A stretch of 33,244 nucleotides of DNA, from the NCBI GenBank assembly GCA_023150915.1, contig JAKLKA010000075.1, positions 1-33,244 of the forward strand. Reading direction: 5' to 3'. The DNA comes from Polyangiaceae bacterium. GTDB taxonomy: Bacteria; Myxococcota_A; Polyangia; Polyangiales; Polyangiaceae. This document shows, one piece after another, positions 12,592-26,812 of this stretch (positions are counted from its first letter, which is position 1; each line of letters starts with the position of its first letter). The translations under genes were made by a program, and so were the position numbers. The notes under the pieces are model-generated. The model was given only the letters and a program-made list of their open reading frames with translations, was not told the origin of the DNA and made no database searches.

Positions 12592-13238
12592 AAGCGACGC
12601 TGGCGCGCCCCGCAGCGTGGCGCGGCCTCCTCGCGGCGCTCGTGGCGCTCGCGCTCACCGCGTCATGCTCGGGCGACGACGACGGGCGCTCCCCCAAGAA
12701 GCCGGCGCTGCCCAACCCAGACACCGAGTGGGCGGTGCACGTATACGTCGGCGAGCCCGGCGCGTGGAAGCGCTTCGACTTCGGGCCGGTGCCGGAGGTG
12801 AGCTTCCCGGCGGGGCCGTTCGATGGCGCCGGGGCGCTTCCGGGGTCCCCGGCGGATCTGTGGAACGGCCCGCCCAACCCGAGTGAAACAAGCAGCAAGG
12901 GCGGAAAGGCGCCCGGGTCCAAGGCCCAGGCGGTGGTCGACGCCAAGGACGGTGGAGTGCAGATCGACCAGACGCTGTCGACCGAGTCGAAGAGCTGGGC
13001 CCTGGTCGCCGGGGCGGCGGCGCAGTGCCAGCCCGATGTGCGCCTTGGTCCAGCGACGGCAGCCCTGGTGCCGCCCTGGAGGGCGTCGCGGAGCGCTGAG
13101 CACGGCTGCGGCGAGGAACGACACGGCCCGCGTGGGACCCCCCACGCGGGCCTCGGTGTCGGCGCGGGGCGGTGCTATCTTTGGCCGTATGAACGCCCTG
13201 AAGGCTCACGTGGTGAACGGCCGCATCGTCGTCGATGA
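12567..13238 (+). CDS. Third lipoprotein of the array; 3' end doubtful, possibly frameshifted
   Basis: The start ATG 12567 lies in the same conserved GAGGAAGTGCCATGG context as the second gene. The signal peptide (LSLK, AAWR, lipobox LTASC34) resembles the second gene's, but the mature part (EWAVHVYVGEPGAWKRFDFG) is unrelated and lacks the Gly/Ser linker. The frame runs 223 residues; after about residue 155 it becomes Arg/Pro-rich, passes through a strong hairpin (13119-13161) and ends 50 nt inside the antitoxin gene, which is not how an intact gene ends. In another frame a stop at 13097-13099 falls just before the hairpin. I suspect a frameshift between about 13000 and 13060, or a degraded end. 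The N-terminal 150 residues are credible. Confidence 0.55.
   Translation: MAWNLLSLKATLARPAAWRGLLAALVALALTASCSGDDDGRSPKKPALPNPDTEWAVHVYVGEPGAWKRFDFGPVPEVSFPAGPFDGAGALPGSPADLWNGPPNPSETSSKGGKAPGSKAQAVVDAKDGGVQIDQTLSTESKSWALVAGAAAQCQPDVRLGPATAALVPPWRASRSAEHGCGEERHGPRGTPHAGLGVGAGRCYLWPYERPEGSRGERPHRRR
13119..13161 (+). terminator. Strong hairpin, probable terminator of the lipoprotein array
   Basis: GGCCCGCGTGGG (13125-13136) pairs perfectly with CCCACGCGGGCC (13141-13152) around ACCC. An outer CGACAC/GTGTCG stem pairs after a 3-nt bulge. No T-run follows. It lies just after the stop expected if the third lipoprotein gene is frameshifted, and just before the toxin-antitoxin promoter. Confidence 0.6.
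13176..13181 (+). promoter_or_regulatory. Start-proximal -10 box of the antitoxin gene
   Basis: TATCTT ends 7 nt before the ATG at 13189. No Shine-Dalgarno is visible and the -35 region is weak. This predicts a leaderless toxin-antitoxin transcript. Confidence 0.35.
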
Positions 13239-13419
13239 ACCCACCGACCTGCCGGACGGCACCGAGTTGTACCTGGTGCGGGCGCATTCTGATGACGAGA
13301 TGGCCGAAGACGAGCGCGCAGAGCTCGAAGCCGCGATTGACGAAGGACTTGACGACTTCGAGGCGGGGCGCATCGTCGACGAAGAGACCATTCGAGCGAA
13401 GTTGCGAGCCTACCGTTGA
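13189..13419 (+). CDS. Antitoxin of a type II toxin-antitoxin pair
   Basis: The 76-residue protein starts MNALKAHVVNGRIVVDEPTDLPDGTELYLV, a short beta-rich N-terminus of the kind seen in AbrB-like or AF2212-like antitoxins. It continues as an acidic helical tail (DDEMAEDERAELEAAI and beyond) that would wrap the toxin. Its stop overlaps the toxin start as TTGA, the usual tight coupling of such operons. It should neutralise the downstream ParE/RelE-type toxin and repress the shared promoter. The exact antitoxin family is not certain. Confidence 0.78.
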   Translation: MNALKAHVVNGRIVVDEPTDLPDGTELYLVRAHSDDEMAEDERAELEAAIDEGLDDFEAGRIVDEETIRAKLRAYR

Positions 13420-13712
13420 AGCTCGAGCTTGCTGCGCGTGCCGACCGCGAGATCGAACGCACCCTGAAGTGGTGGATGGAGCATCGCCAAGACGCGCCCG
13501 CGTTGCTCAGCGATGAGATCGGGGAGTACTTCGACAAGCTGAAGAAGTCGCCGAATTTGGGCGAGCCCTGGGGCACGCGCCGCGGAAAAGAGATCCGCCG
13601 GGTGCTCTTGCCCCGCACGAAGAAGAAGCTCTACGTGATGCGGCCAGACCCGAACACCGTACGGGTCATCTGCTTCTGGGGCGGCCAGCGCGGCCGCGAG
13701 CCCAAGCTCTAG
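13416..13712 (+). CDS. ParE/RelE-superfamily toxin
   Basis: The 98-residue protein begins at TTG 13416, overlapping the antitoxin stop by 4 nt; no better start is nearby. It has the superfamily layout: an N-terminal strand and helix (LELAARADREIERTLKWW), a helical hairpin (LLSDEIGEYFDKLKKSP), then basic beta strands (IRRVLLPRTKKKLYVMR, VRVICFWGGQRGREPKL). It resembles the plasmid-stabilisation/ParE branch common in myxobacteria more than mRNA-cleaving RelE, but sequence alone does not separate gyrase from ribosome targeting. Confidence 0.82.
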   Translation: MKLELAARADREIERTLKWWMEHRQDAPALLSDEIGEYFDKLKKSPNLGEPWGTRRGKEIRRVLLPRTKKKLYVMRPDPNTVRVICFWGGQRGREPKL

Positions 13713-13922
13713 CGCGCGCCCCTCTTAGCCGCCGAAAACACGCGTCCCCGCGCGCGTGCGCGTCGGCGCTCGCGTCTCGGCGAGCACGAAGCTAGGCTGA
13801 AACTCGCGTCAGGGATTTTCGTCGCTGCACGAGGATCTCGCGTCTGGTCTCTGAATTTCTAAGCTGCGAATCGCGCCCGGGAAACCCGAGATGCGCGCTG
13901 CGCGCTCGCGTCGGAGTCGAGC

Positions 13923-14876
13923 TTCACAGGTAAGGAAGAGGACGTCGAGGTCGGGCTCCAGTACTTCGGGAAGAGGTACTACGCGCCGCTCTTGAACCGG
14001 TGGGTGAGTGCGGATCCGGCGGCGGTGCACCTCCCAGGAGAGGCCGACTTCAACCTGTAAGCGTACGTCATCGGGGCGCCGCTCAAGAACATCGATCCAC
14101 TCGGACTCCAGAGCTGCACGGCCAGTGGTGCGGGAGGTTGCGGGGGCGGCGCGAACGAGGGCGGCTCGCAGGGCGCTCCTGCCTCGGACACGCAGAAAGC
14201 GAACCCCGCGCGTACGCAGGCGTACGAGGCTGGTGCACACAACTGGAGAGTTGACCAAGCGGCCGATGCGTTTCGACAGCAGGCGGTCCTCCAGCGCGTC
14301 ACAGAAGCCCGCGCCGAGAACCGAGCGGTCGATGAATCGGCCCTGAAGGCGGACCTGGACGCGATCGCGGCATGGCAACGGCTGAATCGGCGGGAGGGCC
14401 CCAGCGATGGCGCGAACCGGCGCGCCTACGAGGAGGGGTATAGGAGTGAGCCGGTGTGGCAGGCCGGCGCGCAAGTGGCGATCGCCTTCATGGGCAGCCG
14501 CGGGGGCAGGGCGACTCCACGTCCACCTGGGATGCCGGCAGCTCACACGCCAGTCGACCGTCTGCCAGTGGGGAGCGAGATGAAAGCACCCGCACAGGCC
14601 GGTGCCTACCAGAGGCCATCAGGGGCGACCACACCGGCGCAGCGCGGGGCTGTCCAGGGAAAACCGTGCGTGATGTGCGGAAATGTGAAACCCAGGATGA
14701 ACGCGGATCACAAGGACCCGCTGGTGATGGAGCACTACCGAAACAACGGCCAGATCGACAAACAGAAAATGCGGGATGTAGAGTCTGTTCAATCGCAATG
14801 CCCATCGTGCTCAAATCAGCAGGGGGGCTTCTTGGCGAGCTTCGGACGAGCCATGCGAAAACTCTTCGGACTATGA
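13923..14876 (+). pseudogene. RHS remnant with nonsense codon, carrying an intact HNH-type toxin tip
   Basis: The frame begins inside the RHS repeat-associated core signature: FTGKEEDVEVGLQYFG, RYYAPLLNRWVSADP, EADFNL-stop-AYV, LKNIDPLGL. TAA at 14058-14060 replaces the tyrosine codon expected in NLYAYV, and the rest of the RHS barrel is missing upstream. After PLGL the same frame stays open to 14876 with a variable C-terminal region. From an internal ATG at 14454 this gives 140 residues with C72-x2-C75, D85-H86-x2-P-L, N97/N98 and C116-x2-C119-x-N121, an HNH/treble-clef nuclease pattern. The frame overlaps the immunity gene by ATGA. Base composition drops in GC toward the 3' end, suggesting transfer. 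Whether the tip is still expressed is unknown. Confidence 0.78.
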
Positions 14877-15220
14877 ACGCAATCGAGGAGGAACAGCGGC
14901 GACTGTGCACCAGGTACGGAGTGCCATGGGTGCCGTCGCCGGATAGTCTCAAGGTCGGCATCGCGCTGAATGTAAGAGACGGTCTGCAGCCGCTCAATGG
15001 ACTGCGTCACCCGCCGGAAGCGGATACGACGGGTTGGTACATCTGGGCCGGAGACAAGCTCAGCACTGACCCTGACTTCTTCGCGCCGCTGCACGTGGTC
15101 CATCTCCGCGAGTGGTGCCCTGGCGTGTTGAGGCTGCTGGGACTGCCGCCTGGTTGGCGTTTCTTGCTTGCAGACGAGCACCTTGACGTGTGGGAGGACC
15201 GTCGCCTTCTGGAAGTGTGA
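14873..15220 (+). CDS. Immunity protein, Imm33/DUF2185-like
   Basis: This 115-residue cytoplasmic protein starts at ATG 14873, overlapping the toxin stop by 4 nt. Its C-terminal half matches my recollection of the Imm33/DUF2185 immunity family: [48 protein letters not shown]. Polymorphic-toxin immunity genes lie directly after their toxin and neutralise it by binding. The family assignment rests on remembered pattern, not a search. The gene shows no damage, in contrast to the RHS core upstream, so protection may still be selected. Confidence 0.75.
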
Positions 15221-15247: not shown

Positions 15248-15780
15248 GCTTCTTGCGCTCGTTGATGCGGCTCGGGCGGGTCCGTCCAACGTCGGCGTTG
15301 AGCTGCGGCGGCGCGTTTCAGTGACGGACCTCGGTGACGAGAGCCGTGCTCGCCGCCGTCAGCTCCAACGCTCTGCTGGACGGGTTGTCCGCTACGAGTG
15401 CTAGATGCGGCGCGGTGAAGGCGCACGCGGGGAGGCGGGGCGCCGGCTCAGCGTGACCGTGTTTTCGGTGGTCTTGATCTCGTACAGATCGTTGACCACG
15501 GGCTGGAGATTGCGACCGGAAGGCGGATTTCAACACCGAGCTCTGAGCTGAAACCCGCGAGGCGTTGCCGGCGACGAGCGGGCCGGGCAGCGGGGCGCCG
15601 GGGGCCGGGCGGGCTCGGCGCCCGCGCAGCCGGCTCGTGCTCCCCGCCGGCACCCGGCGAGCCAATGTCGGCGTTGCCCCCGGGACTTCCGCTCGCCGCT
15701 GGGCCGGGGCCCGAAGTCGGCGACCTCGACCGGCGCCCAGCGTATAGTCGCCCCTCCCCGGGGAACTTCGGAGCCACAAC
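15248..15780. other. Gene-free stretch between the RHS remnant and the FecR-VIT-vWA operon
   Basis: I see no gene here. Short frames on both strands are Arg/Ala/Pro-rich and carry no recognisable motif. On the minus strand a 40-residue frame (about 15401-15522) contains PVVNDLYEIKTTENTVTLSR, more protein-like than its surroundings, perhaps the decayed end of a lost gene. The last 40 nt hold the promoter and ribosome site of the gene at 15781. Confidence 0.45.
15743..15748 (+). promoter_or_regulatory. Candidate -10 box for the FecR-VIT-vWA operon
   Basis: TATAGT matches the -10 consensus at five of six positions and would start transcription about 25-30 nt before the ATG at 15781. The -35 region is unconvincing. 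GGAG near 15770 is a reasonable ribosome site. Confidence 0.35.
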
Positions 15781-18700
15781 ATGGTCTGGCAACGCTGCAT
15801 GCGTCCACAAGTCACCCAGCGCCTCGGCGCCTGGGTCGGGTTTCTGCTGCTGGTGGTCTCCACCTTCGCTTGCGGGGGGCGCGAGCGACCCTTGGCCCCC
15901 CGCAGCCAGACCTGGGCCGAGCTGCGCACCGTGCGGCGCGCGGTGCGCGTCACGCCGCCCGACGAGAAAGAGCGCGACCCGTATCCGCGCGAGCGCCTGG
16001 TCGACGGCGCGCGGGTCAAGGTCGAGGCCGGGGGCCTGGCCTGGCTGCGCCGCGACGCGGGGGCAACCCTGCTGGTGCGCGGCCCCGCGCAGGTGGTGGT
16101 CTATGCCGACGGCCTCAAGCTCGAGTCGGGGCGCATCTTCGTCGACTCACCGGTGAGCCGCGCCACCGAGATCGAGGTGCCGAGCGGCAAGCTGCAGCTC
16201 GCCCAGGTGCGGGCCAGCCTGGACGTGGCCGCGAACGGAACCACCGAGGCCTACGTGCTCGACGGCGAGGTGCGCCTGGGCGACAGCGTGCGGGCTAGGG
16301 CCGGCGAGCGCCTGGTCGCGGCCAAAGAGGGGGCGCCGAAGCTCGAGGCGGTGAAGGTCTGGGAAGACTGGACCGGCGGGCTCGCGACCACCGATCCGGT
16401 GGCGACCCCGGCCCCGTTCGGCGTGGGCACCGTGGGGGCCAGGCCGCCGGGCAACATCGGCTCTCCGCGCTTCCCGCTGGCAATTCAACGCCTGGACGTG
16501 CGCGTGAGCGTGGACGGCGACTTCGCTGTGACCGAGGTCGATCAGCGCTTCTTCAACCCCAGCTCGGCAACGGTCGAGGGGATCTACCGTTTCCGATCGC
16601 CGGCCGGCGCATCGATCCATCGCTTCGGCGTCGATCGCGGGGGTGATCTGGTGTGGGGCCGCGTGAAAGAGAGCGCCGCGGCCGCCGCGCAGTATCAGGC
16701 CAACGTCTATCAAGGCTCGACCGAAGATCCGGCGCTGCTCGAGTGGGAGGGCCCCGGCGCCTACCGCGCGCGGCTCTACCCCATCGGCCCCGGCGAGTCG
16801 CGCCGCGTGGTGGTGCGCTATACAGAGTGGCTGCCGCGCAACGGCGCCAAGGGTGAGCGCCGCCACTATGTGTATCCGATGGCGGCCGAGGGCTCCGAGG
16901 CCTCGCTGCCCGTGATCGAAGAGCTGACCATCAAGGTGGAGCTGGCCAAGGCGCGCGCCAACGAGGTGCGGGTCGGCATGGCCGGCATGCGCCAGGGCAC
17001 GGAGGTGATCGTCCGCGCGCAGGACTACGTGCCGCGTGCGGATCTGTCGGTAGAGCTCTTCGACGACGGGGTGAAAGCGCTGGGCGCGTATCACGCCAAG
17101 CACTCCCCCGACCTGACCGTGCTGGCCCCCGACGCGCGGGTCGAGGCCAACAAGGCGGCTCTGGGCGAGGTGGGCTACGTGCTGGTGCCGCTGCGCGCCA
17201 GCGACATCCCGATCCAGCCGGGCGGGCTCGATCTGGCCATCGTGGTCGATGCCTCGGCCGCGAACGACGCCTCGAGCATGGCGCTGGCTCGCGCCGCGGC
17301 CATGGGGCTCTTGAGTCACCTGGGCGAGGACGACCGCGCCATGGTCTGGGCCGGCGCAGAAGCGCTGCGCCCCCTCTTGCCCGACGTGACGGGCCTGGCG
17401 AAGATCGACAGCGCGGTGCGCCAGCGTTATTCGGCGGCGCTGGCCAGCCTTCAGCGCGGTGGTGCCACCGACCTCGGCGGCATGCTGAGCCTGGCCGCGA
17501 GCCAGCTCGATCCGGCGCGGCGCGGGGTGGTGGTGTACATCGGCGACGGCCTGCCGACCGTGGGCGAGCTGTCACTGAAAGAGCTGGAGCAGAAGCTGGG
17601 CAAGCTGCCGCGTCCGCCCCGGGTGTTCTCGCTGGGGGTGGGCCGCGACGTGGACATGGCCTTGCTCGCGGGGCTCGCCACCGGCGGCTTTGCCACGCGC
17701 CTGGACGACGCGTTCTCGGCGGCGCGCGCCGGGCTGTCGGTCCTCGAGCGCGCCGAGCGCCCGGCGTGGCTGGGCACCGAGGTCAGCCTGGGCGACAACG
17801 TCGAGCGCATCTATCCGCGCGGCTCGGCGGCGCTGGTGGCCGACGAGACGGTGGTGGTGGTCGGGCGCACGGCCAGCGCCACGCCCCGCAAGCTGACGAT
17901 CGCGACGCGCGACGGCAAGAAAGAGCTGCCCCTCGACCCCCGAGCCCTCGACGACCAAGGCGATCTGCGACGGCGCTGGGCCGAGGCGCGGCTCGACGAG
18001 CTGCTGCGCGAGCGCGCGGGGCGGGCCGCCATGGTCGACGTCGGCTCGCGCTTCGGGATCATCACCCCCGTCACGTCGTTCTACGTGCCCACTGCCCGCG
18101 AGCTGGCGGAAGAGCGTCGGCGCTTTCAGCCGGAAGAGGAGCAGCGCGAAGCGGAAGAAGCACAGGCGAACGCGGACAACAAAGAGGGTGGCACCGGCAC
18201 GCGCGCCAAGGGCGAAGAGGGCTCGATGGGCAACCCGTCGAGCGCCACCAGCAAGCGCTATGCCGTGGCCGGGCCGCGCGACAACGCCGTGGCGCGCCAA
18301 GAGGCGCTGAAAGAGTCCGCCGAGTTCGGCATGATCGGCCTGCTGAACACCGGCGCGGGTGGCGACCCCAGCGCGCCGGCCGCGCCGTGGGGCAAGGACC
18401 AACCCGCCCCGGCCGCGCCACCGCCCGCGGCGGCAGCCGCGGCCAGCGGGCCCACGGCCGGCGAGAAGGCGCCCGAGGCCGAAGCAAAGCCGACCGACGC
18501 TTCAAAGCGCAAAGCGCCGGATGGCAACACCTGGGGCGACGAGATCGGCGACGTGCTGGGTGCCGGCGGGGTCGGCCTGTCGGGCGTGGGCGAGGGCGGC
18601 GGTGGCAAGGGCGAGGGCATCGGGCTCGGCACCATCGGCACGCTCGGCCACGGTGCCGGCACCGGTACTGGGCAGGGCTTCGGCTCGGGACACGGTCGGC

Positions 18701-20490
18701 TGGGCGGCGCGCACGCCAACAAGGCGCCGACCGTGCGCATGGGCGCGACGCAGATCACCGGCAAGCTGCCGCCCGAGGTGGTGCAGCGCATCGTGCGGCA
18801 GAACTTCGGGCGGTTCCGCCTGTGCTACGAGCAAGGCCTCACGCGCAACCCGAACCTCGAGGGGCGGGTGGGCGTGCGCTTCGTGATCGACGAGCAAGGC
18901 TCGGTGGCCAACGCCAACAACGCCGGCTCCGACTTGCCGGACGCCGGCGTCGTGGGCTGTGTGGTTGCCTCGTTCAACGGCCTGAGCTTCCCCCAGCCCG
19001 AGGCCGGCAAGGTCACGGTGGTCTATCCCATCATGTTCGCACCGGGTGACGGCAAGCCGGCCAAGCCCGAGAAGGTCGAAGAGCCCATCGTGCTGGTCGG
19101 GCTCGATCTGATCCCACGCTTCATCATCCGCTGCAGCGTTGCCGCCGACTTGCCCCTGGCCGACCGGGTCACGCTGTGGCGCGAGCGCCTCTCGAAGATG
19201 TCGGGCAGCCCCGGCGGCGTGCTCGGCGTCTATCAGAAGGCGCTGTCCGGCTGCGAGGCGCCCAGCTGGACCGAGCGGCGGCGCCTCTTGTCGTTGATGC
19301 TCGATGCCCTGGGCAGCGTGCAGCTGCGCGTGGGCTTGTGGAAGCTGATGAAGAACGACGCGACCGCGGCCGACTCGCTCTACCGAGGCATCGTGGCCCG
19401 CATCAAGACGGCGCAGCAGATGCGGGAGCTGCACGCCGCGCTCGGCCTGAAGACCATGGACCCGGGCATGCTCGAGAAGCTCTTGGCCGAGACCAAAGAT
19501 CCAGCCGAGCGCGCCGCCAAGCTGCGCGTGCTCACCCGCGAGTGGCCGGACGACTTCCAGCTGGGCCTGCGCCTGCTCGATGCGTTGGAAGACGCCGGCG
19601 ACTTCGCCGGTGCTGCCGACTTTGCCGAGCGCCTGCGCTCGCGCCCCGACGCCGACGCGCACGTGCGCACGCTGGTGGGCGAGCTCTACCTGCGGATCGC
19701 GGGGGCCCAGAAGGAACCGAAGAACCAGGCCGAATACGAGGCGCTGGCCCGGCGCGCGTTCGGCGAGATCGTGGAGTTCTCGCCCGACGACCCGGTGGCG
19801 CGCCGGCGCCTGGGCGACCTGCTGCGCGCGCACGGCTGGTTCGCGGACGCGCGCCGGCAATACGAGACCCTGGCCAGCATCACGCCCGACGACGCGAGCG
19901 TGGCGCTGTTGCTGGCCGCTGCGGCCGAGGGCGAGGGGCAGGTCGAGGCTGCCGTGCGCTGGACCGAGAAGGGTCACGGCGCGGGCGCGCCCGACGTGGA
20001 CTCGGGGCCGGCGGCGACCTCACGGGCGTTTGCGGCCACGTTCCTGGCCTGGGGCCGGCTTGCCGCGCGCGAGGGCAAGCGCGAGCAAGAGGCCACCGAT
20101 CTGGCCACGCGGGCCGAGCAGGTCTTGGCCGCCGACCGCGCCAAGACCGGCAGCGGTGCGCGGGTGACCCTGAGCTGGTCGCACCCGGAGCTGCACCCGG
20201 TGCTCTATACCAATGCCCTGGGCGCACCCATGCCGGCCGCCGAAGGTGACGTGACGCTCGGCATTGCCCAGGCGCGAATGCCCTCGAAGGGCGAGCGCTG
20301 GGTCGAAATCCGCATCGAGAAGGGCGACGTCGAGGCGGCAGCGCGGCTCGGCGCCGAGCTGATGCTGACGGTGGTGTTCGACGAGCTCGGCAAGAACGAG
20401 AAGATCATCAAGCTGCCCGTGCGATTCGAGCGCGGCGGGCCACCCATCTTGCGCTTCAACCTGGGCACGGGGGAGGTGACCCGTGGCTAA
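15781..20490 (+). CDS. Giant lipoprotein: FecR-like, VIT, degenerate vWA, AgmX/PglI-type TonB-like domain, helical repeats
   Basis: The 1569-residue protein has a lipoprotein signal (hydrophobic 16-29, STFAC31). Residues 70-200 form a FecR-like domain (DGARVKVEAGG, LKLESGRIFVDS). A VIT domain lies at about 225-355 (VTEVDQRFFNPSSATVEGIYRF, QANVYQG, YRARLYPI). A vWA domain lies at about 483-660, with metal-site motif D490-A-S492-A-A494, where the last serine of DxSxS is lost. A long acidic/Ala/Gly-rich linker follows to about 985. An AgmX/PglI C-terminal domain (about 993-1083: FGRFRLCYEQGL, NLEGRVGVRFVI, VVGCVVASF, VTVVYPIMF) comes next, then TPR-like helices to about 1460 and a final beta domain. 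It is probably a periplasmic or outer-membrane scaffold. The next gene starts 8 nt before its stop. Confidence 0.85.
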   Translation: MVWQRCMRPQVTQRLGAWVGFLLLVVSTFACGGRERPLAPRSQTWAELRTVRRAVRVTPPDEKERDPYPRERLVDGARVKVEAGGLAWLRRDAGATLLVRGPAQVVVYADGLKLESGRIFVDSPVSRATEIEVPSGKLQLAQVRASLDVAANGTTEAYVLDGEVRLGDSVRARAGERLVAAKEGAPKLEAVKVWEDWTGGLATTDPVATPAPFGVGTVGARPPGNIGSPRFPLAIQRLDVRVSVDGDFAVTEVDQRFFNPSSATVEGIYRFRSPAGASIHRFGVDRGGDLVWGRVKESAAAAAQYQANVYQGSTEDPALLEWEGPGAYRARLYPIGPGESRRVVVRYTEWLPRNGAKGERRHYVYPMAAEGSEASLPVIEELTIKVELAKARANEVRVGMAGMRQGTEVIVRAQDYVPRADLSVELFDDGVKALGAYHAKHSPDLTVLAPDARVEANKAALGEVGYVLVPLRASDIPIQPGGLDLAIVVDASAANDASSMALARAAAMGLLSHLGEDDRAMVWAGAEALRPLLPDVTGLAKIDSAVRQRYSAALASLQRGGATDLGGMLSLAASQLDPARRGVVVYIGDGLPTVGELSLKELEQKLGKLPRPPRVFSLGVGRDVDMALLAGLATGGFATRLDDAFSAARAGLSVLERAERPAWLGTEVSLGDNVERIYPRGSAALVADETVVVVGRTASATPRKLTIATRDGKKELPLDPRALDDQGDLRRRWAEARLDELLRERAGRAAMVDVGSRFGIITPVTSFYVPTARELAEERRRFQPEEEQREAEEAQANADNKEGGTGTRAKGEEGSMGNPSSATSKRYAVAGPRDNAVARQEALKESAEFGMIGLLNTGAGGDPSAPAAPWGKDQPAPAAPPPAAAAAASGPTAGEKAPEAEAKPTDASKRKAPDGNTWGDEIGDVLGAGGVGLSGVGEGGGGKGEGIGLGTIGTLGHGAGTGTGQGFGSGHGRLGGAHANKAPTVRMGATQITGKLPPEVVQRIVRQNFGRFRLCYEQGLTRNPNLEGRVGVRFVIDEQGSVANANNAGSDLPDAGVVGCVVASFNGLSFPQPEAGKVTVVYPIMFAPGDGKPAKPEKVEEPIVLVGLDLIPRFIIRCSVAADLPLADRVTLWRERLSKMSGSPGGVLGVYQKALSGCEAPSWTERRRLLSLMLDALGSVQLRVGLWKLMKNDATAADSLYRGIVARIKTAQQMRELHAALGLKTMDPGMLEKLLAETKDPAERAAKLRVLTREWPDDFQLGLRLLDALEDAGDFAGAADFAERLRSRPDADAHVRTLVGELYLRIAGAQKEPKNQAEYEALARRAFGEIVEFSPDDPVARRRLGDLLRAHGWFADARRQYETLASITPDDASVALLLAAAAEGEGQVEAAVRWTEKGHGAGAPDVDSGPAATSRAFAATFLAWGRLAAREGKREQEATDLATRAEQVLAADRAKTGSGARVTLSWSHPELHPVLYTNALGAPMPAAEGDVTLGIAQARMPSKGERWVEIRIEKGDVEAAARLGAELMLTVVFDELGKNEKIIKLPVRFERGGPPILRFNLGTGEVTRG

Positions 20491-23400
20491 GAAGATCTTG
20501 CGCCTGGTGGCCATCGTCGGCGTCCTTCTGGCCGTGGTGGTCGGCGTCGTGTTCGCGGTTCGCCCGCGGGTGGTTCAGCGCGGCGCCTCGGTGGCCGACC
20601 TCTCGGTGGTGCACCCCGGGGTGCGCGTGAACGGTGCCGAGCGCCGGGGTCTGGCGCGCCTTGCCCCGGGCCAGCGCGTCGAGACCGACGCTCAAGGGCG
20701 CGCACGCGTCCGGCTCGACGACGGCACGCTAGTGCTGATCGATCGCGCCACCCAGCTGACCGTGGACGACGCCAAGGTGAGTCTTACCAGCGGGCGGCTG
20801 TTCGTCGAGGGCGTGCTCGGCGCTCGCGCCGAGATCTCGATCGGCGACGTGAAGGTGCGGCCCGGCCCGGCGCGCGTCGGCTTCGACCGGAGAGAGGGTC
20901 CGGCCCGCGTGTATGCCGCCAACGACGAGATCGTGGTGGCGGCGCCGGGCGGCGAGCACAAGGTTCGCTCGGGCGAGTCCGCGGTGATCGACGGCGCGAC
21001 CGTGACCGTGCGCCCCGAGAAGGCCTTCGACGACTGGACCGGTGGTCTGGCTGCGCCTTGGGGCGCCGCCGGCCCGCCGCGGCGCGCAGTGGGTGAGGTC
21101 TGGGGCGCCGATCTGGGCGCAAAACCCGGCGATCCGGGCTCGCCGCTGACCATTCGCTCGCTGGACGTGACCGCCAAGCTCGAGCCCGAGATCGCCCACA
21201 CCCGCGTCACCACCACCTACTTCAATGGCGGCAGCCAGACCGTCCGGGGCGACTTCCGCATGGCGCTGCCACAGAACGCCATCGTGTCGCGCTTCGCCTG
21301 GGGTCGTGACGACGCGCTGGAAGAGGGCAAGGTCGTCCTGGCCGCGCGGGACGCGGTGTCGCTCACCCCCGAGGGCACCGCGCTGCTCGAGTGGGCGGGC
21401 GAAGGCTGGGTGCGCGGGCACCTGCCCGCCATTGCGAGCGGCGCCGCGACCACGGTGGCGATCGAGTACATCGAGTGGCTGCCGGTGCGCCGCGAGTCCG
21501 GCAAGCTGCTGGCGCAGTACCGCTTCCCGATGGCCGCTGCCGGCGAGCCGCCGCTGATCGGCGAGTTCTCGGCGCACGTGGACGCGGCCCTGGCCAAGCC
21601 GCGGTCGCTGTCGGCCAGCTCGGGCACGAACGTCGACGGCACCAGCGTGCGCACCCGGCGCCCCGACTTCCGTCCGACCGCCGATCTCGTGGTCGACGTC
21701 GAGCAGGCGCCCTGGGACTCGAACGCGCGCCTGTACGTTGCTCCGAAAGAGGGCGACGAGGACGCGAGCACCGTGCTGGTGCGGGCGGACTTGCCCGACG
21801 TGGGGCCCGAGGTCGGCGCGACGCTGGCGCTGGTGGTGGACACCTCGGGCAGCGCCGAGCCGGCCGAGCTGGACGTCTCCAAGGCGTTCGTGCGCGCCGT
21901 GCTCGACGCCCTGGGCGATCGCGATCGCGTGGTGGTGCTGAGCGCCGATCAGAACGTGCGCCCGGTGGGCCCGGCCGCGGTCGGACCGCTGGACGCCGCG
22001 CGCAAAGCGGCCATTGTCGAGGCCCTGGGCAAGCTCGCCCCCGGCGGCGCCACCGATCTGGGGCGCGCGCTGGAAGCCGGCGCCGACGCGTTGCCGGCCG
22101 ACGCCCCGGCGGGCGTGGTGGTGTACGTGGGCGACGGCTGGGCCACGCTGGGCGACCCCGACGTGAAGAGCATCGAGGCGCGGCTCGCGCGGCGCGCCGG
22201 CGGCAAGCCTCGCGTGGGCGCGGTGGCCGTTGGAGCCATGGCCCACGTGCGCGCGCTGCGCGCGCTCACCCAGGGCTCGGGACCGCTGCTCTTCGTCTCG
22301 GACTCGTCGGACGCCACCGCGGCCGCCACCGAGCTGGTGGCCGACGCGCTGCGCCCGGCGTTCGCCGGCGTCGAGCTCTCGCTGGGGCCCGAGATCGAGC
22401 AGGTCTACCCGCGCACCGCCCGCGCCGCCTTTGCGGGCAGCACCATCGAAGCGGTGGGCCGCGTGCGCGGCCGACCGCCGAGCGTGGTCACCCTCAAGTG
22501 GCGGGACAAAGACGGTGCCCACGAAGACCGCCGCATGATCGCGCTGCGCGTTGCACCGTTTCCCGACGACCTGCGCCGGCGCTGGGCCAAGGCGCGCATC
22601 GACGAGCTCTTGCTGGCGCGTCGCGGCCGCGAATCGGTGACCGACGTCGCGCTGCGCACGGGGCTGATGACGCCGTGGACCGGCTTCTCGCTGGCGACCA
22701 GCTATACCGGTACCGCGCTCGAAGCGCGTCAGCTCGACGTGGCGCTCTCGGACGTGATCACGCCCTGGGACGAGATCCCGGTCACCCAGGGCGCGTCGGA
22801 CTTTGCCTCGGGCGCGCTGGTCAGCGTGCCCCACCCGGGCCGGGTCGACGACGCTGCGAGCGACAAAGAGCTCGAGAGCGCCGTGGCCGCAGCGGCGGGC
22901 TTCACCATCGACAGCGCCATGCCGTCGGTGCGAGCCTGCCGCGACTCGCGCGCCGCGCTGCGCCCCGACTTGACCGGCACCCTGGTCGTTTCTCTGGCGG
23001 TCGACGGCGACGGGCGCGCAAGCGACGTGAAGGTGCGTGGCAACACCGCCGCTGCTCACGACGACGCGCTCAATCGCTGTGTCGAGGTGGCGCTTCAGGG
23101 CATGTCGTATCCCGAGAGCGGGCTGGGCGCGAAGGTGAAGGTCGAGCGCGAAATCCTCTTGCCGCCGCCGCGCGCGGCGTTGCGCGGCACCAAGTGCTCG
23201 GCGCTGTCGCAGCTGCCCATGCCGCTTCGACGTGGCGTGTGGCGCGTACGCCTGGCCACCGAGAAGCCGTTCGACGTGTTCATCTCGGCCAAGCGGCAGT
23301 GTGAGCTGACCAGCTGGGCCGACCGGCGCGCGCTGCTCGAGCTCTCGCTCGTGGTCGAGAAAGACGGCGTGCGCAGGGTCGAGCTGGGCCGCGCGCTGGA

Positions 23401-24496
23401 CGTGGCGGGCGAGGTCGAGGCCTCGGCCTTCGTGCGCCGCGAGGCCGTGCGCCGCGCGCACAACGCCAGCGAGCTGTCACGGGTGAAGCAGGCCCTGGTG
23501 GGCAGCGAGGCCTACCCGATGTCGGTGCTCCAGAAGCGCTATCGCGCCGCCACCAGCGACGAGGGTCGCCTGGCCGTGGTGCGCCGCTTCTTGACCATTG
23601 CGCCCCACGACAGCTTCTTGAAGGGGCGCCTGATCGCGCTGCTCGAAGTGCTGGGCAAGAAAGAGCAGCTGAGCGAAGAGGCGCGCAAGGTCCGCCTCGA
23701 TCCCTTCGCCTCGGCAGAGGTGCTGGCCGACGTGGCCAGCGTGCTCTTGCGCCTGGGCGACCAAGACGAAGCGCGGCGCACCTTCGGCGAGCTTGGCGAG
23801 CGCGCCCCCGCCGACCCCTGGGCCCGGGCATTCTTGGGCGATCGTCTGCGCAACGAGGGGCTGTTCGACGACGCCAGCCAGGCCTATGCCGCGCTCTCGG
23901 AGCTGGCGGCCGACGAGCCCGCCGGGATCCTGCGCAGCGCGCTGGCCCACGCGGGCGCCGGCCGCCTGGATCTTGCACGTCGTCTGCTCACGCGTGTGGT
24001 CGAGACCGGTGGGCGGTCCGGTCAGGCGGCGGCATCCACCTTGGCCGGGCACGTGGCGGCAGCGCTGCTGGCAGAGGCCCGCGCGGATGCCGGGGCCAAG
24101 GACCAGTCCGACGCGCTGACCTTCGCCTCGCTGGAGGTGCCGCGCACCGAGAAGCGTCACGTGCTCTTGCTGCGCACCCCCGCCGCGTTGCCCGGGGTCG
24201 ACGTGAAGCTCACGCGGCGCTTCGGCAAAGAGAAGGAAGAGATTGCCGCCGACATCGCCGCCGCGGCCATGGGCCTGTATGCCATCGCGTTCGACCCCGC
24301 CGGAGCAGAGCTCGAGCTGTCGCTCACGCGGCCCGAAGAGCTTGCGCCCGCACGCCCCTACAAGCTGCGCGTGGACACGCTCTTGCCGTCGGACTCGGTC
24401 AGCACCCCGCCGAAGCTGGCCAAGGCCGAGCTCGAGCTGCCGGCCACCGGAAAGGCCGTGACGCTGCGCTGGGCGAATGGCGCGTGGGTGAAGTGA
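20483..24496 (+). CDS. Membrane-anchored paralogue: FecR-like, VIT, vWA with intact metal site, TonB-like domain, TPR
   Basis: The 1337-residue product starts at GTG 20483 with GGAGGTGA 3 nt upstream, inside the previous gene. Instead of a lipobox it has an uncleaved N-terminal membrane anchor (about 7-28, LVAIVGVLLAVVVGVVFAV). The domain order matches its neighbour: FecR-like (50-180), VIT (about 210-335), vWA (about 447-620) with complete metal-site D453-T-S455-G-S457, a shorter AgmX/PglI-like domain (about 811-890, two cysteines, GTLVVSLAVDGDGRASDV), TPR-like helices (about 1040-1230) and a beta C-terminus. The 8-nt overlap means the two are made together, so they probably assemble as one envelope complex. 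Its stop is 7 nt from the convergent TPR-PEGA gene. Confidence 0.85.
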   Translation: MAKKILRLVAIVGVLLAVVVGVVFAVRPRVVQRGASVADLSVVHPGVRVNGAERRGLARLAPGQRVETDAQGRARVRLDDGTLVLIDRATQLTVDDAKVSLTSGRLFVEGVLGARAEISIGDVKVRPGPARVGFDRREGPARVYAANDEIVVAAPGGEHKVRSGESAVIDGATVTVRPEKAFDDWTGGLAAPWGAAGPPRRAVGEVWGADLGAKPGDPGSPLTIRSLDVTAKLEPEIAHTRVTTTYFNGGSQTVRGDFRMALPQNAIVSRFAWGRDDALEEGKVVLAARDAVSLTPEGTALLEWAGEGWVRGHLPAIASGAATTVAIEYIEWLPVRRESGKLLAQYRFPMAAAGEPPLIGEFSAHVDAALAKPRSLSASSGTNVDGTSVRTRRPDFRPTADLVVDVEQAPWDSNARLYVAPKEGDEDASTVLVRADLPDVGPEVGATLALVVDTSGSAEPAELDVSKAFVRAVLDALGDRDRVVVLSADQNVRPVGPAAVGPLDAARKAAIVEALGKLAPGGATDLGRALEAGADALPADAPAGVVVYVGDGWATLGDPDVKSIEARLARRAGGKPRVGAVAVGAMAHVRALRALTQGSGPLLFVSDSSDATAAATELVADALRPAFAGVELSLGPEIEQVYPRTARAAFAGSTIEAVGRVRGRPPSVVTLKWRDKDGAHEDRRMIALRVAPFPDDLRRRWAKARIDELLLARRGRESVTDVALRTGLMTPWTGFSLATSYTGTALEARQLDVALSDVITPWDEIPVTQGASDFASGALVSVPHPGRVDDAASDKELESAVAAAAGFTIDSAMPSVRACRDSRAALRPDLTGTLVVSLAVDGDGRASDVKVRGNTAAAHDDALNRCVEVALQGMSYPESGLGAKVKVEREILLPPPRAALRGTKCSALSQLPMPLRRGVWRVRLATEKPFDVFISAKRQCELTSWADRRALLELSLVVEKDGVRRVELGRALDVAGEVEASAFVRREAVRRAHNASELSRVKQALVGSEAYPMSVLQKRYRAATSDEGRLAVVRRFLTIAPHDSFLKGRLIALLEVLGKKEQLSEEARKVRLDPFASAEVLADVASVLLRLGDQDEARRTFGELGERAPADPWARAFLGDRLRNEGLFDDASQAYAALSELAADEPAGILRSALAHAGAGRLDLARRLLTRVVETGGRSGQAAASTLAGHVAAALLAEARADAGAKDQSDALTFASLEVPRTEKRHVLLLRTPAALPGVDVKLTRRFGKEKEEIAADIAAAAMGLYAIAFDPAGAELELSLTRPEELAPARPYKLRVDTLLPSDSVSTPPKLAKAELELPATGKAVTLRWANGAWVK

Positions 24497-24503
24497 GGCA
24501 ATG

Positions 24504-25433
24504 CTAGAACCGCACCAGCGGCCCGGCCACCTGGCCCGGGGGCATGTCGCCCTTGTCGGCGTCGCGCTCGGTGAGCAGCGCATAGACCAAGACGCCGCCG
24601 CCCACCGCGGCCACGCCCACGCCGGTCCAGAACCACCAGCGCGAGGTGAGCGCGGGCGGTCGGTCGAGCGGAACGTTGATCTCGTTGCGACCGCCGGCGA
24701 CCATCTCGACTCGGGTGTCGGCGTCGTCGTACTCGGCGTGGCGCACGACCACGCGGTGCTTGCCGGGCGGCAGCACCGTCTGCACGGGCACTGCCCCCAA
24801 GCGCTTGCCATCGACGAACACCGTGGCCCCGGCCACCGGCGAGCCGACAATCAAGAGGCCCCCCGAGGCCTTGGTGACCAGCTTCACCTCGAGCTTTTGC
24901 TTGGCGCCACCCGCCAGCGTGAGCGTACGTCGGAACGGGTGATAGCCGTCGGCGCTGACCTCGACCACCGCCTTGCCGGCGTTCACGCGCAGCGGCTTGT
25001 CGAGCGGTGTGGTGCCTGCCACCTTGGCGCGCAAGAGCACCCGCGCTCCGGGCACGTTGCAGGCGATCTCGAGCTGGCTCACCTTGGCGCGCACGCGGCC
25101 CAAGAGCTCGTCGAGCCGCCGGACCTTGGCCTTGAGCTCGTCGGGCGCCGTGCGCTCGAACTCTTCGAGCTGGTCGAGCGCTTCGGGATAGCGCGCCAGG
25201 GCCTCGTAGGCCCGGCCGCGGTTGTAGAGCAGTGCCGGCGACGGATCGAGCGCATAGGCCTTGTCGTACAGATCCAGCGCGCGCTCGTACTCGATGCGCT
25301 GCATGGCCTCGTCGGCCTGGGTCTTCAGCGCACTGGCCTGTGCCTGAGCGTCGGGCGATTGCGCCCGGGCCGAATGCGAGAAGCAGAGCGTGGCGGCGAG
25401 CGCGAGCGTGCAGAAGGCGACGGCGCGGTTCAT
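24504..25433 (-). CDS. TPR and PEGA-domain membrane protein
   Basis: The start ATG 25433 overlaps the kinase stop by 4 nt (ATGA). The 309-residue protein has a signal peptide (1-24, ending SARA). TPR-type helices lie at about 30-110 (ALDLYDKAYALDPSPALLYNRG), followed by two PEGA-like surface domains at about 120-187 (GTTPLDKPLRVNAGK, GYHPFRR) and 190-256 (GATVFVDGKRLG, LPPGKHRVVVRH). A membrane segment at about 266-287 precedes a short charged tail. The combination TPR-PEGA directly after a Ser/Thr kinase is common in myxobacteria and suggests an envelope-sensing or scaffold partner of the kinase. Confidence 0.85.
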   Translation of the reverse strand: MNRAVAFCTLALAATLCFSHSARAQSPDAQAQASALKTQADEAMQRIEYERALDLYDKAYALDPSPALLYNRGRAYEALARYPEALDQLEEFERTAPDELKAKVRRLDELLGRVRAKVSQLEIACNVPGARVLLRAKVAGTTPLDKPLRVNAGKAVVEVSADGYHPFRRTLTLAGGAKQKLEVKLVTKASGGLLIVGSPVAGATVFVDGKRLGAVPVQTVLPPGKHRVVVRHAEYDDADTRVEMVAGGRNEINVPLDRPPALTSRWWFWTGVGVAAVGGGVLVYALLTERDADKGDMPPGQVAGPLVRF

Positions 25434-26812
25434 AGCGTGAGGGGAATGCCCGGGTCCTTGGGCTCGGGTTTCTTGGGCTCGGGTTTCTTGGGCTCGGGGG
25501 GCTGGGGCTTGGCCTCGGCCGACGCGGCCAGAGGCGACGGAGCGGGCTTGCCCGCCCTGGCCGCGGGCGGCTTCGGTGCCGCGCTTGCGGGCGCCGCTAC
25601 CTCGACCTTGGGCTCCACGGCGGGCTCGACGGTGGGCTTCGGGGGCGGCGTGGGGCTCGGGGCCGGCGCGATCACGGTGGTCGGCGGGGGCTCGGCTGCC
25701 GGATCCTTGCGGCTCGCCCAGAAGATGGCGGCTGCGGCCAGCGGCACCAGCGCGAGCGCGGCGATGGCCAGTCGTGCGCCGGACCTGCGCGGTGCCCGGG
25801 GCTCGTCGACGACGGTCAGCGCCGGTTGTGGGGCGTTCGGTGCCGGTGGGGGCGGCGCCGCAGTGGCCGGCGCGGGCAGCGTGGGTGCGTCGGTCAGCAC
25901 CCGGATCACCTGAGGGCTGCTGTCGAGCACCGGCTCGGGGACCCACCGGCCCTGGGAGCCGAACGGTGCGAGCGCGGCCGCCATGTCGCTCACCGTCTGG
26001 AAGCGCCGATCGGGGTCCTTCTCGAGCGCGCGCAGCATCACCTGCACCAGCGCGTCGCGCAGCTCGCTGCGGTGCTCGCGCGGGCTCTTGACCGGATCGG
26101 CGGTGATCGCGGCCACCACCGAGGTGGGGCTCTCACCGGTGAAGGGCGTGGTGCCTGTCAGGACCTCGTACAAGATCACGCCCAAAGACCAGATGTCCGA
26201 GCGGGCGTCGGCGCGGCGCGACGATCGGATCTGCTCGGGCGACATGTAGAGCGGCGTGCCCAGCGCCGAGCGGGTGGCCGTGACCGACGAGTCCGCCTCG
26301 GTCAGCTTCGAGATGCCGAAGTCGAGCAACTTGATGCGGCGCCCGCGACCCTCGCCGCACAGGAACAGGTTGTGGGGCTTGAGGTCGCGGTGAATGATGC
26401 CCCGCTCGTGGGCCTCTTGCACCGCCGAGCAGGCCTGCAGCACATAGTCCACGCCCTCGACGATGGGCAACGGCCCGCGCCGCGCGAGCTCCATGTCGAG
26501 GTCGCGACCCTCGAGGAACTCCATCACGATGAAGGGGGTGCCATCGGGCATGGTGTCCACGTCGTGGATGCGGGCGACGTTGGCGCTCTTGAGCTTCGCC
26601 GCCATGCGCGCCTCGCGCTCGAAGCGCGCGACCACCTCGGTGCTCTGCCGGTCTTGCTCGCGGAGCAGCTTGATGGCCACCCGCTCGCCCAGGCGCTGGT
26701 GCAAGGCCTCGTACACCACGCCCATGCCGCCCTCGCCCACCCGCCGCAGGATCTCGTACTTGCCCGCCAGCAGGCTGCCTTTCAGATCCGGGGCGTGGAC
26801 GGGATCGGCCAT
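25430..26812 (-). CDS. Membrane-anchored Ser/Thr protein kinase (Hanks type)
   Basis: The 460-residue kinase has a full catalytic domain at about 18-285: glycine loop GEGGMGVV, K48, E67, H141-R-D-L-K-P-H-N, D164-F-G, GTPLYMSPEQ, and SDIWSLGVILYE. A Pro-rich juxtamembrane segment precedes a single membrane helix (about 347-366). The outer part is Pro/Ala/Lys-rich and ends in PEPKK repeats, perhaps reaching through the cell wall. It follows the LamG lipoprotein gene after 3 nt and overlaps the TPR-PEGA gene by 4 nt, so these three form one operon. Substrates are unknown. Confidence 0.93.
   Translation of the reverse strand: MADPVHAPDLKGSLLAGKYEILRRVGEGGMGVVYEALHQRLGERVAIKLLREQDRQSTEVVARFEREARMAAKLKSANVARIHDVDTMPDGTPFIVMEFLEGRDLDMELARRGPLPIVEGVDYVLQACSAVQEAHERGIIHRDLKPHNLFLCGEGRGRRIKLLDFGISKLTEADSSVTATRSALGTPLYMSPEQIRSSRRADARSDIWSLGVILYEVLTGTTPFTGESPTSVVAAITADPVKSPREHRSELRDALVQVMLRALEKDPDRRFQTVSDMAAALAPFGSQGRWVPEPVLDSSPQVIRVLTDAPTLPAPATAAPPPPAPNAPQPALTVVDEPRAPRRSGARLAIAALALVPLAAAAIFWASRKDPAAEPPPTTVIAPAPSPTPPPKPTVEPAVEPKVEVAAPASAAPKPPAARAGKPAPSPLAASAEAKPQPPEPKKPEPKKPEPKDPGIPLTL
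25457..25498 (-). repeat. 15-nt tandem repeat encoding PEPKK in the kinase tail
   Basis: CTTGGGCTCGGGTTT is repeated 2.8 times exactly (25457-25471, 25472-25486, 25487-25498). It lies in frame near the kinase C-terminus, so copy-number change would lengthen or shorten the tail by five residues per unit. Confidence 0.85.

Follow-up and report, generated by a model that had tools for sequence, protein, structure and literature searches.

An overlapping pair of giant VIT-vWA genes conserved in Polyangiaceae and a possible link of the upstream partner to the GltG machinery

Results

Two overlapping paralogous genes

We analyzed a 33,244-nucleotide stretch of DNA from a Polyangiaceae bacterium (assembly GCA_023150915.1, contig JAKLKA010000075.1, positions 1 to 33,244 of the forward strand; hereinafter, the window), which lies on the contig denoted C13 in an 8.0 Mb genome (G000; 295 contigs, 98.8% complete). 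The focus of this work is a pair of giant genes on the plus strand of the window, A (15781–20490; P0001, 1569 amino acids, ATG start) and B (20483–24496; P0002, 1337 amino acids, GTG start), which form an ancient, co-inherited unit. Gene A encodes a predicted lipoprotein with a FecR-like beta region, VIT and vWA domains, a glycine-rich linker, a TonB-like tail of the AgmX/PglI type and TPR-type helices; the product of B combines an N-terminal anchor with FecR, VIT, vWA and TonB-like domains, TPR-type helices and a C-terminal beta region. The two open reading frames share 8 nucleotides, with the TAA stop codon of A at 20488–20490. A sequence resembling a ribosome-binding site, GGGGAGG (20470–20476), is located 6 nucleotides ahead of the GTG codon at 20483, and this initiation region (20470–20485) lies within the 3' end of A; because B thus starts within the last codons of A, the arrangement is that of translational coupling. 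An earlier note on this DNA had described two giant genes with an 8-nucleotide overlap, a lipobox with Cys31 in A and an uncleaved anchor at about residues 7–28 in B, and all these features were confirmed from the open reading frames and their translations.

The two proteins are paralogs, with BLASTP matches of 33% over 724 columns (E = 1e-71) and 30% over 392 columns (E = 2e-26). In both, VIT precedes vWA. The VIT domain (PF08487, cut-off 26.5 bits) scores above the cut-off in A (16483–16821, residues 235–347, 72.8 bits) and in B (21152–21343, residues 224–286, 27.4 bits), whereas the vWA domain is well above the cut-off of 27 bits in B (VWA_2, PF13519; 21827–22138, residues 449–552, 36.6 bits) and 0.3 bits under it in A (VWA_3, PF13768; 17230–17682, residues 484–634, 26.7 bits). 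The AgmX/PglI TonB-like domain (NF033768, cut-off 40) was found at 18772–19038 in A (residues 998–1086; 82.1 bits, and 88.2 in the genome search) and at 22904–23146 in B (residues 808–888; 35.9 bits, and 41.2 in the genome search). For the TonB_C domain, the Pfam scan gave 14.9 bits in A, under the cut-off of 24.6, and listed no match in B. The repeat region of A yields a TPR_19 match (PF14559; 19747–19920, residues 1323–1380, 23.3 bits, E = 8e-5) below the curated cut-off of 25, and that of B (23201–24136) was delineated by DSSP on the structural model, its TPR matches being weak and below the cut-offs. The genome contains four VIT matches, namely, A, B, one on contig C6 and one on contig C124, and 28 matches to the AgmX/PglI tail, of which 21 are above the cut-off.

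The FecR domain, which the earlier note had assigned to both proteins, is a sub-threshold match in the B protein of the window (PF04773; 20675–20860, residues 65–126), at 20.6 bits against a cut-off of 24; in relatives of B that were scanned it matched in 8 of 9 at E ≤ 0.001 and in 9 of 9 at 0.05, with 5 of 9 above the cut-off. Among 33 relatives of A, a single protein matched Pfam FecR at E ≤ 0.001, and the assignment in A rests on homology to the corresponding region of B.

Conservation of the pair

Among 60 genomes of Polyangiaceae, a family of soil bacteria, searched with B and with the head of A, A was present in 30 and B in at least 31. The sole B for which no A was found belongs to a 1280-contig assembly (G029), where B begins at base 1 of its contig. 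The relatives collected, distinct by sequence, comprise 36 A, 33 B and 11 proteins of a third type (type C; see below). The 33 B loci that were read closely are those with B above 700 bits in the fetched stretches; outside this count are the partial B genes of G017, G018, G029 and G037 and the B of G039, with pieces of A present in all of these genomes except G029. The genes of the pair are split across contigs in three genomes (G018, G037 and G039). In all 33 B loci, A lies directly upstream, so relatives keeping only one of the two genes as a rule are not what was found, and A and B indeed co-occur as a rule. A possible B start lies 4 or 8 nucleotides before the end of A in 32 of the 33 loci, the overlap in the remaining one (L074) being 1 nucleotide, and the overlapping start is preceded by a Shine-Dalgarno-like site in 27. 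Extra copies of A with no B in the fetched stretch occur in G003 and G030 (L045 and L046), and a further partial A is found in G045. The named records that carry B include Minicystis rosea, four Polyangium, a Byssovorax metagenome-assembled genome (MAG) and other MAGs of Polyangiaceae or Myxococcales (18 loci).

Beyond the family, 47 of the 114 genomes in a survey of the class matched at E ≤ 1e-40, and nine pairs from other families of Polyangia were read; a draw of 141 genomes from the phylum yielded 7 with a match at E ≤ 1e-60, all belonging to the same order. In a tree of 100 heads, built by a quick method and with ten near-duplicates (five A, five B) left out, A (31 rows) and B (29 rows) each form a clade with support of 100. 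On one side of a branch supported at 95 are A, type C, the nine upstream class-level partners and 9 of the 11 single proteins; on the other are B, the nine downstream partners and the remaining two single proteins. Two rows, D_L139 and S_L144, are long and of unsure position. Accordingly, the duplication that gave rise to A and B is older than the family Polyangiaceae, and the gene order has been kept since. The pairwise distances of A and B are strongly correlated (r = 0.91; partial r = 0.87 given GltG; 0 of 2000 permutations) across 20 genomes, with G010, G042 and G059 left out, although this correlation may be explained by shared inheritance alone. The pairing is real and old, and A and B are a co-inherited gene pair of fixed order.

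Type C is a third, unpaired clade of VIT-vWA proteins, represented in the genome of the window by the gene on contig C6 (L028). It has relatives in other families and occurs in genomes both with and without the pair.

Predicted folds and metal sites

The structural models cover residues 40–1239 of A (mea7dba8f81d8; mean predicted local distance difference test score, pLDDT, 77.2) and 138–1337 of B (m346feaf9c7cd; 84.3), and the linker of A (approximately, residues 801–979) has pLDDT below 50. The first Foldseek match of both models is inter-alpha-inhibitor heavy chain 1 (E = 1.2e-25 for A and 3.1e-20 for B). In the VIA comparison with this protein, the A model gives Z = 19.7 with 490 residues aligned at a root mean square deviation of 6.2, and the B model gives Z = 20.5 with 504 residues at 5.8. 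Thus, judging by the models, both partners carry an inter-alpha-inhibitor-like VIT-vWA head that includes a hybrid-type beta domain. The second half of B is modeled as a TonB-like alpha/beta unit followed by a long helical repeat and the C-terminal beta region; because the VIA lists are filled by the VIT and vWA part, they say little about the fold of the TonB-like, helical and C-terminal regions.

The metal-ion-dependent adhesion site (MIDAS) is split between the partners. The vWA domain of B contains the complete motif DTSGS (21839–21853, residues 453–457), whereas A has the degenerate variant DASAA (17248–17262, residues 490–494). The DxSxS motif is complete in 33 of 33 relatives of B and in none of the 35 relatives of A, and the fifth position is Ala or Gly in all 35 A and in 9 of 11 type C proteins; a truncated A (L064) was left out of these counts and of the N-terminal counts given below. 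In the head tree, which has no outgroup, B may have either kept or regained the motif. According to PMC7170535, heavy chain 1 dimerizes through its MIDAS with Mg2+ or Mn2+, and the D298A mutation abolishes the dimers. In Polyangiaceae, a vWA domain apparently competent for metal binding is found in B only, and since B alone has this site, we infer that it could hold on to an acidic residue in A or in a third partner.

Membrane anchors

The hydrophobic stretch at the N-terminus of A ends in the lipobox-like STFAC, with the Cys31 codon at 15871–15873; that of B (20501–20566, approximately residues 7–28) has no Cys at its end and is preceded by 6 residues. A Cys closes the hydrophobic stretch in all 35 intact relatives of A, 31 of 36 A rows match a strict PROSITE-like lipobox pattern, and a hydrophobic anchor with no terminal Cys is present in 29 of 33 relatives of B. 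The automatic lipobox pattern additionally flagged the B of L071, with the Cys located within the hydrophobic stretch. In the nine class-level pairs, lipobox-like ends are found on both partners in all cases (the Cys of U_L132 and of D_L139 was assigned by eye). Thus, the observation in the earlier note of one lipid and one transmembrane anchor applies to most of the Polyangiaceae rows but not as a rule: a strict contrast of this kind is ruled out by the lipobox-like N-termini of 9 of 9 class-level downstream partners and of 4 of 33 B proteins of the family, and the contrast, so far as the N-terminal sequences tell, is specific to the family.

Where the downstream partner is lipoprotein-like, it tends to carry a Lys next to the Cys: Lys at position +2 or +3 occurs in 9 of 13 downstream versus 3 of 44 upstream lipoproteins (Fisher p = 1.4e-5, with the range of positions picked after seeing the rows and related rows not being independent), compared to 4 of 13 versus 3 of 44 for Lys at +2 alone (p = 0.041) and p = 0.00018 for the range from +2 to +4. 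Of 12 putative inner-membrane lipoproteins of Myxococcus xanthus, 8 carry Lys at +2, although a Lys added at this position did not restrict FibA to the inner membrane (both from PMC3222651). The Lys at +2 or +3 on lipoprotein partners of the B side is a possible mark of the inner membrane. Furthermore, the overlapping B start and the transmembrane segment lie about 140 codons apart in six loci, including four named Polyangium; in L057 (8263–8682, plus strand), the one read, this extension of approximately 140 residues is acidic, of low complexity and hydrophilic and has no Pfam match.

From these N-terminal features, B is probably located in the inner membrane and A in the outer membrane, so that the proposal of one partner per membrane receives indirect support from both sides of the pair, that is, a Cys in 35 of 35 family and 9 of 9 class-level upstream partners, and a transmembrane anchor or the Lys signature in the downstream partners. 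Alternatively, both proteins could reside in the same membrane, inner or outer, as a heteromeric platform for adhesion or assembly that bridges nothing, the transmembrane segment of B merely replacing a lipid anchor. The two lipobox-like N-termini in each of the class-level pairs and the four lipobox-like B proteins of the family favor such an arrangement, but the skewed distribution of Lys, given how frequent Lys +2 is among the M. xanthus inner-membrane lipoproteins, speaks against it, as does the hydrophilic stretch ahead of the transmembrane segment, a feature anticipated for inner-membrane proteins that begin in the cytoplasm; on balance, we consider a shared membrane rather unlikely.

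A GltG-type arm in gene A

GltG acts as the transducer coupled to the motor in the Agl/Glt system. The region of A between the head and the repeats is a GltG-type module (18130–19056) consisting of a conserved linker, a glycine-rich stretch and the TonB-like tail, and was recognized by its likeness to P0003, a GltG-like protein encoded in the same genome: residues 784–874 and 913–1092 of A are 73% and 77% identical to P0003. This protein of 685 amino acids matches GltG over nearly its full length (338.6 bits; cut-off 650). Besides further TPR-type proteins, its gene cluster encodes a GltE-like TPR protein (67.2 bits; cut-off 225) and a homolog of GltC (304.6 bits; cut-off 450), an arrangement resembling the GltC-D-E-G core described in PMC3169522. 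The GltG profile (NF033760) matches A at 128.9 bits, within profile positions 477–647 only, and B at 14.5 bits. A GltG-like protein with a match extending beyond the arm is present in 24 of 24 searched genomes with the pair and in 22 of 22 searched genomes without it, and hence, GltG is independent of the pair.

In a tree of 94 tails (103 columns; five B rows left out), one clade (47 rows; support 93/93) contains all 24 GltG tails together with the 20 tails of A. The B tails form a clade of their own (96/96), 8 of 9 tails of downstream class-level partners form another (82/89), and four tails of upstream class-level partners belong to yet another (97/79; 100/96 with one single protein). Within this set, a tail was identified in 20 of 36 A, 34 of 34 B, 4 of 9 upstream and 9 of 9 downstream class-level partners, and 1 of 11 type C proteins; NF033768 matches at E ≤ 0.001 in 20 of 33 A and 30 of 31 B members, leaving 13 of 33 A with no tail by this profile, and a simple pattern for the CYE.GL...P.L.G-like motif likewise assigns a tail to 20 of 33 A rows. 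The earlier note had ascribed the same FecR-VIT-vWA-AgmX/TonB-like-helical repeat architecture to both proteins. The paralogy and the shared domain order bear this out, but the TonB-like domains, which occupy the same place, have different relatives, and descent of the TonB-like part from a common ancestral domain finds no support in the tail tree. A single TonB-like domain duplicated together with the genes is thus supported neither by this tree nor by the absence of the tail in 16 of 36 A rows.

In a tree built on the module from 23 GltG and 16 A rows (left out were the divergent GltG of G010 and those seven of the 23 A rows that have no tail), A does not form one clade (log-likelihood difference 50, approximately unbiased test p = 0.0051). 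Of the 23 GltG proteins compared, the one from the same genome is the closest to the A module in 12 of 23 genomes, with ties counted first and, here as in the module tree, a second GltG copy used for G042, where the best copy is cut by a contig end. After centering, with row and column means removed, the same-genome excess is 2.46 points (standard deviation of the null 0.43; 0 of 20000 permutations), and it is 2.57 when close relatives are thinned to 20 genomes. Because the arm is closest to the resident GltG more often than expected by chance, A most likely engages a partner of GltG or GltG itself. Recent gene conversion between A and GltG at the DNA level is unsupported, given that fourfold-degenerate sites lack a clear preference for the same genome.

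The module is not restricted to the pair. Seven other Polyangiaceae proteins (L155–L161), which were fetched because the GltG search matched them, all carry it after the head; VIT is present in 7 of 7, a vWA match at E ≤ 0.01 in 5 and a TPR match at the same threshold in 6. A label of DUF2135 for the C-terminal beta domain noted by eye in four of these proteins was dropped, as Pfam gave no match. The seven proteins, together with the tail in one type C protein and its absence from 16 of 36 A rows, are compatible with the arm being a mobile low-complexity cassette, whereby glycine-rich repeats recombine into the hinges of VIT-vWA proteins that share no common partner. However, the globular tail, where present, retains the CYE.GL...P.L.G-like motif, and the similarity within a genome is seen at the protein level and not at fourfold-degenerate sites, which fits selection better than fresh copying, so that a cassette of this kind appears rather improbable to us.

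Neighboring genes and other features of the window

On the minus strand next to the pair (24507–26812), genes for a PEGA/TPR protein and a Ser/Thr protein kinase are convergent with gene B. An all-against-all comparison of 45 loci revealed no gene outside A and B common to most of them, among the window and the 12 pair loci listed; for the kinase-type genes of the window, matches were found in 9 and 10 other loci, and for an OmpA-domain protein encoded upstream of A in L063, in 8. The kinase and PEGA/TPR genes on the opposite strand and the FecR domain of B invite the view of the pair as a sensor of envelope stress or another signal, with FecR-like sensing and no mechanical role. Nevertheless, a scan of ten proteins, eight of them encoded in the window, gave no match to a sigma-factor or anti-sigma domain, no additional gene recurs in most of the loci listed, and only 6 residues precede the anchor of B in the window genome, all of which makes a sensory function highly improbable.

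The scan of positions 15400–24700 found no promoter-like sites, and it found five terminator-like sites versus 2.7 expected, which were not used. Elsewhere in the window, the product of a minus-strand gene at 28102–29781 has a papain-family cysteine protease domain and, at the C-terminus, an LGFP repeat. Positions 13900–14880 contain a remnant resembling, by eye, the end of an RHS/YD-repeat gene (YFGKRYYAPLLNRWVSADP, with an in-frame stop near 14060) followed by an HNH-like stretch, and at 13189–13712, the end of a small antitoxin-like open reading frame (13189–13419) is immediately followed by one that looks RelE/ParE-like by eye, a possible toxin-antitoxin pair. The 724-amino-acid protein encoded at 2932–5106 ends in a Cys-containing, hydrophobic, Arg-rich tail, which we take to be typical of MYXO-CTERM sorting signals.

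Discussion

The observations on the A-B pair can be combined in a tentative scheme. An old gene duplication would have produced a co-translated, periplasm-facing assembly of two partners, each comprising a FecR-like beta region, a VIT-vWA-hybrid head, a site able to hold a TonB-like domain and a helical repeat arm. A lipid anchor would fix A, probably to the outer membrane, and B would sit in the inner membrane through its uncleaved N-terminus or, in other lineages, through a lipid anchor, often beside a Lys. The metal site of B would grip an acidic residue in A or in a third partner, in the manner of the heavy chain 1 dimers, bridging the envelope, and the arm of A would engage the partner of GltG or GltG itself, tying the pair to the Agl/Glt machinery, where it might compete or cooperate with GltG. 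The likeness of the arm to GltG may thus reflect a physical link between the pair and that machinery. A regularly paired, co-translated and envelope-bridging assembly, with the partners in different membranes (inner for B, outer for A) and the arm of A tied to the GltG machinery, is a reading that could well be correct, although we stop short of calling it probable.

Several observations weigh against this scheme. With respect to the fold and the metal site, the protein ranked first in the VIA list of B is a different vWA protein (4fx5; Z = 23.3 over 320 residues), and in the class-level pairs, a Ser at the fifth MIDAS position is found in 0 of 18 members, so that the downstream partners there lack the complete motif. 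With respect to the anchors, the B proteins of four of the 33 family rows (L039, L065, L068 and L070) are lipoprotein-like. As for a motor, none of the 7 MotA_ExbB matches in the genome is on contig C13, which agrees, as far as ExbB goes, with the earlier report of no ExbB/ExbD-like motor nearby, ExbD not having been searched for. As for the arm, the module tree is affected by long branches and most of its forks are open; after centering, the same-genome GltG is the closest in just 9 of 23 genomes; and fourfold-degenerate sites show no clear same-genome excess between A and GltG. The control comparison of A heads with B heads (five near-duplicate loci left out) is also slightly positive, at 0.43 points (standard deviation 0.16, p = 0.0034; raw rank 1 in 3 of 28), and hence part of the same-genome effect may reflect genome-wide composition, an effect that exists but is much weaker than that between A and GltG. 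The tail itself is missing in 16 of 36 A rows, or 13 of 33 by NCBIfam, and because it is missing so often, coupling to the partners of GltG cannot be the core task of the pair. In G003 and G030, moreover, the tail is on the extra A copies (L045 and L046), for which no B was found in the stretch, whereas the paired A (L059 and L060) have none. Together with the frequent absence of the tail, these B-less copies identify the arm as an add-on rather than the core of the pair.

The recurrence of the module in other proteins opens a broader possibility, namely, that in Polyangiaceae the periplasmic arm of GltG serves as a portable cassette for coupling: placed in the same hinge of several different VIT-vWA proteins and staying in step with the resident GltG, it would allow the Agl/Glt-type motor to pull or position these proteins. 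Under this scenario, which we regard as decidedly unlikely, A and B would function as an envelope clutch, with B in the inner membrane gripping A via its metal site and A being moved through the contacts of GltG.

In the open PubMed Central literature, we recognized nothing that describes the pair or a GltG arm in VIT-vWA proteins. GltG has a known context, namely, AglR and the GltC-D-E-G core, whereas for myxobacterial VIT-vWA proteins none was found in that literature; a class of uncharacterized giant envelope proteins would thus be tied to a known motor-coupled system, which provides a testable entry point. If the arm indeed binds one partner in both contexts, the envelope machines served by a single motor system may extend beyond those of gliding and spore coat assembly. 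The conserved division of the MIDAS between co-translated partners, in turn, offers a simple mutational test of binding by bacterial VIT-vWA proteins.

Among known systems, the closest in the predicted fold is inter-alpha-inhibitor heavy chain 1 (PDB 6fpy and 6fpz), in which the VIT, vWA and hybrid-type domains have the same order and fold as in the A and B models and whose complete MIDAS motif is matched by that of B; the identity, however, is 15–18%, A lacks one MIDAS serine, and A and B are bacterial, predicted to be membrane-anchored and equipped with additional FecR-like, TonB-like and repeat regions. The marine proteobacterial sortase target protein family TIGR03788 shares the VIT-vWA core (75.8 and 59.1 bits), but both scores are far under its cut-off of 551.65. 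The seven Polyangiaceae proteins L155–L161 resemble A in the VIT head and in the placement of the GltG-type module between the head and the repeats, and differ in not being close to B (two weak matches of seven). Finally, GltG/PglI (NF033760) of the Agl/Glt and Nfs machineries shares with A the linker and the TonB-like tail, at the 73–77% identity to P0003 given above, whereas A is a predicted lipoprotein with a VIT-vWA head, has no FHA domain and matches the profile in part only. In two-hybrid tests, the motor protein AglR is bound by GltG (PMC3169522, PMC3858216) and by NfsG (PMC3858216), and motor-driven contacts of GltG and GltJ with TonB-box proteins of the outer membrane have been proposed (PMC5349195).

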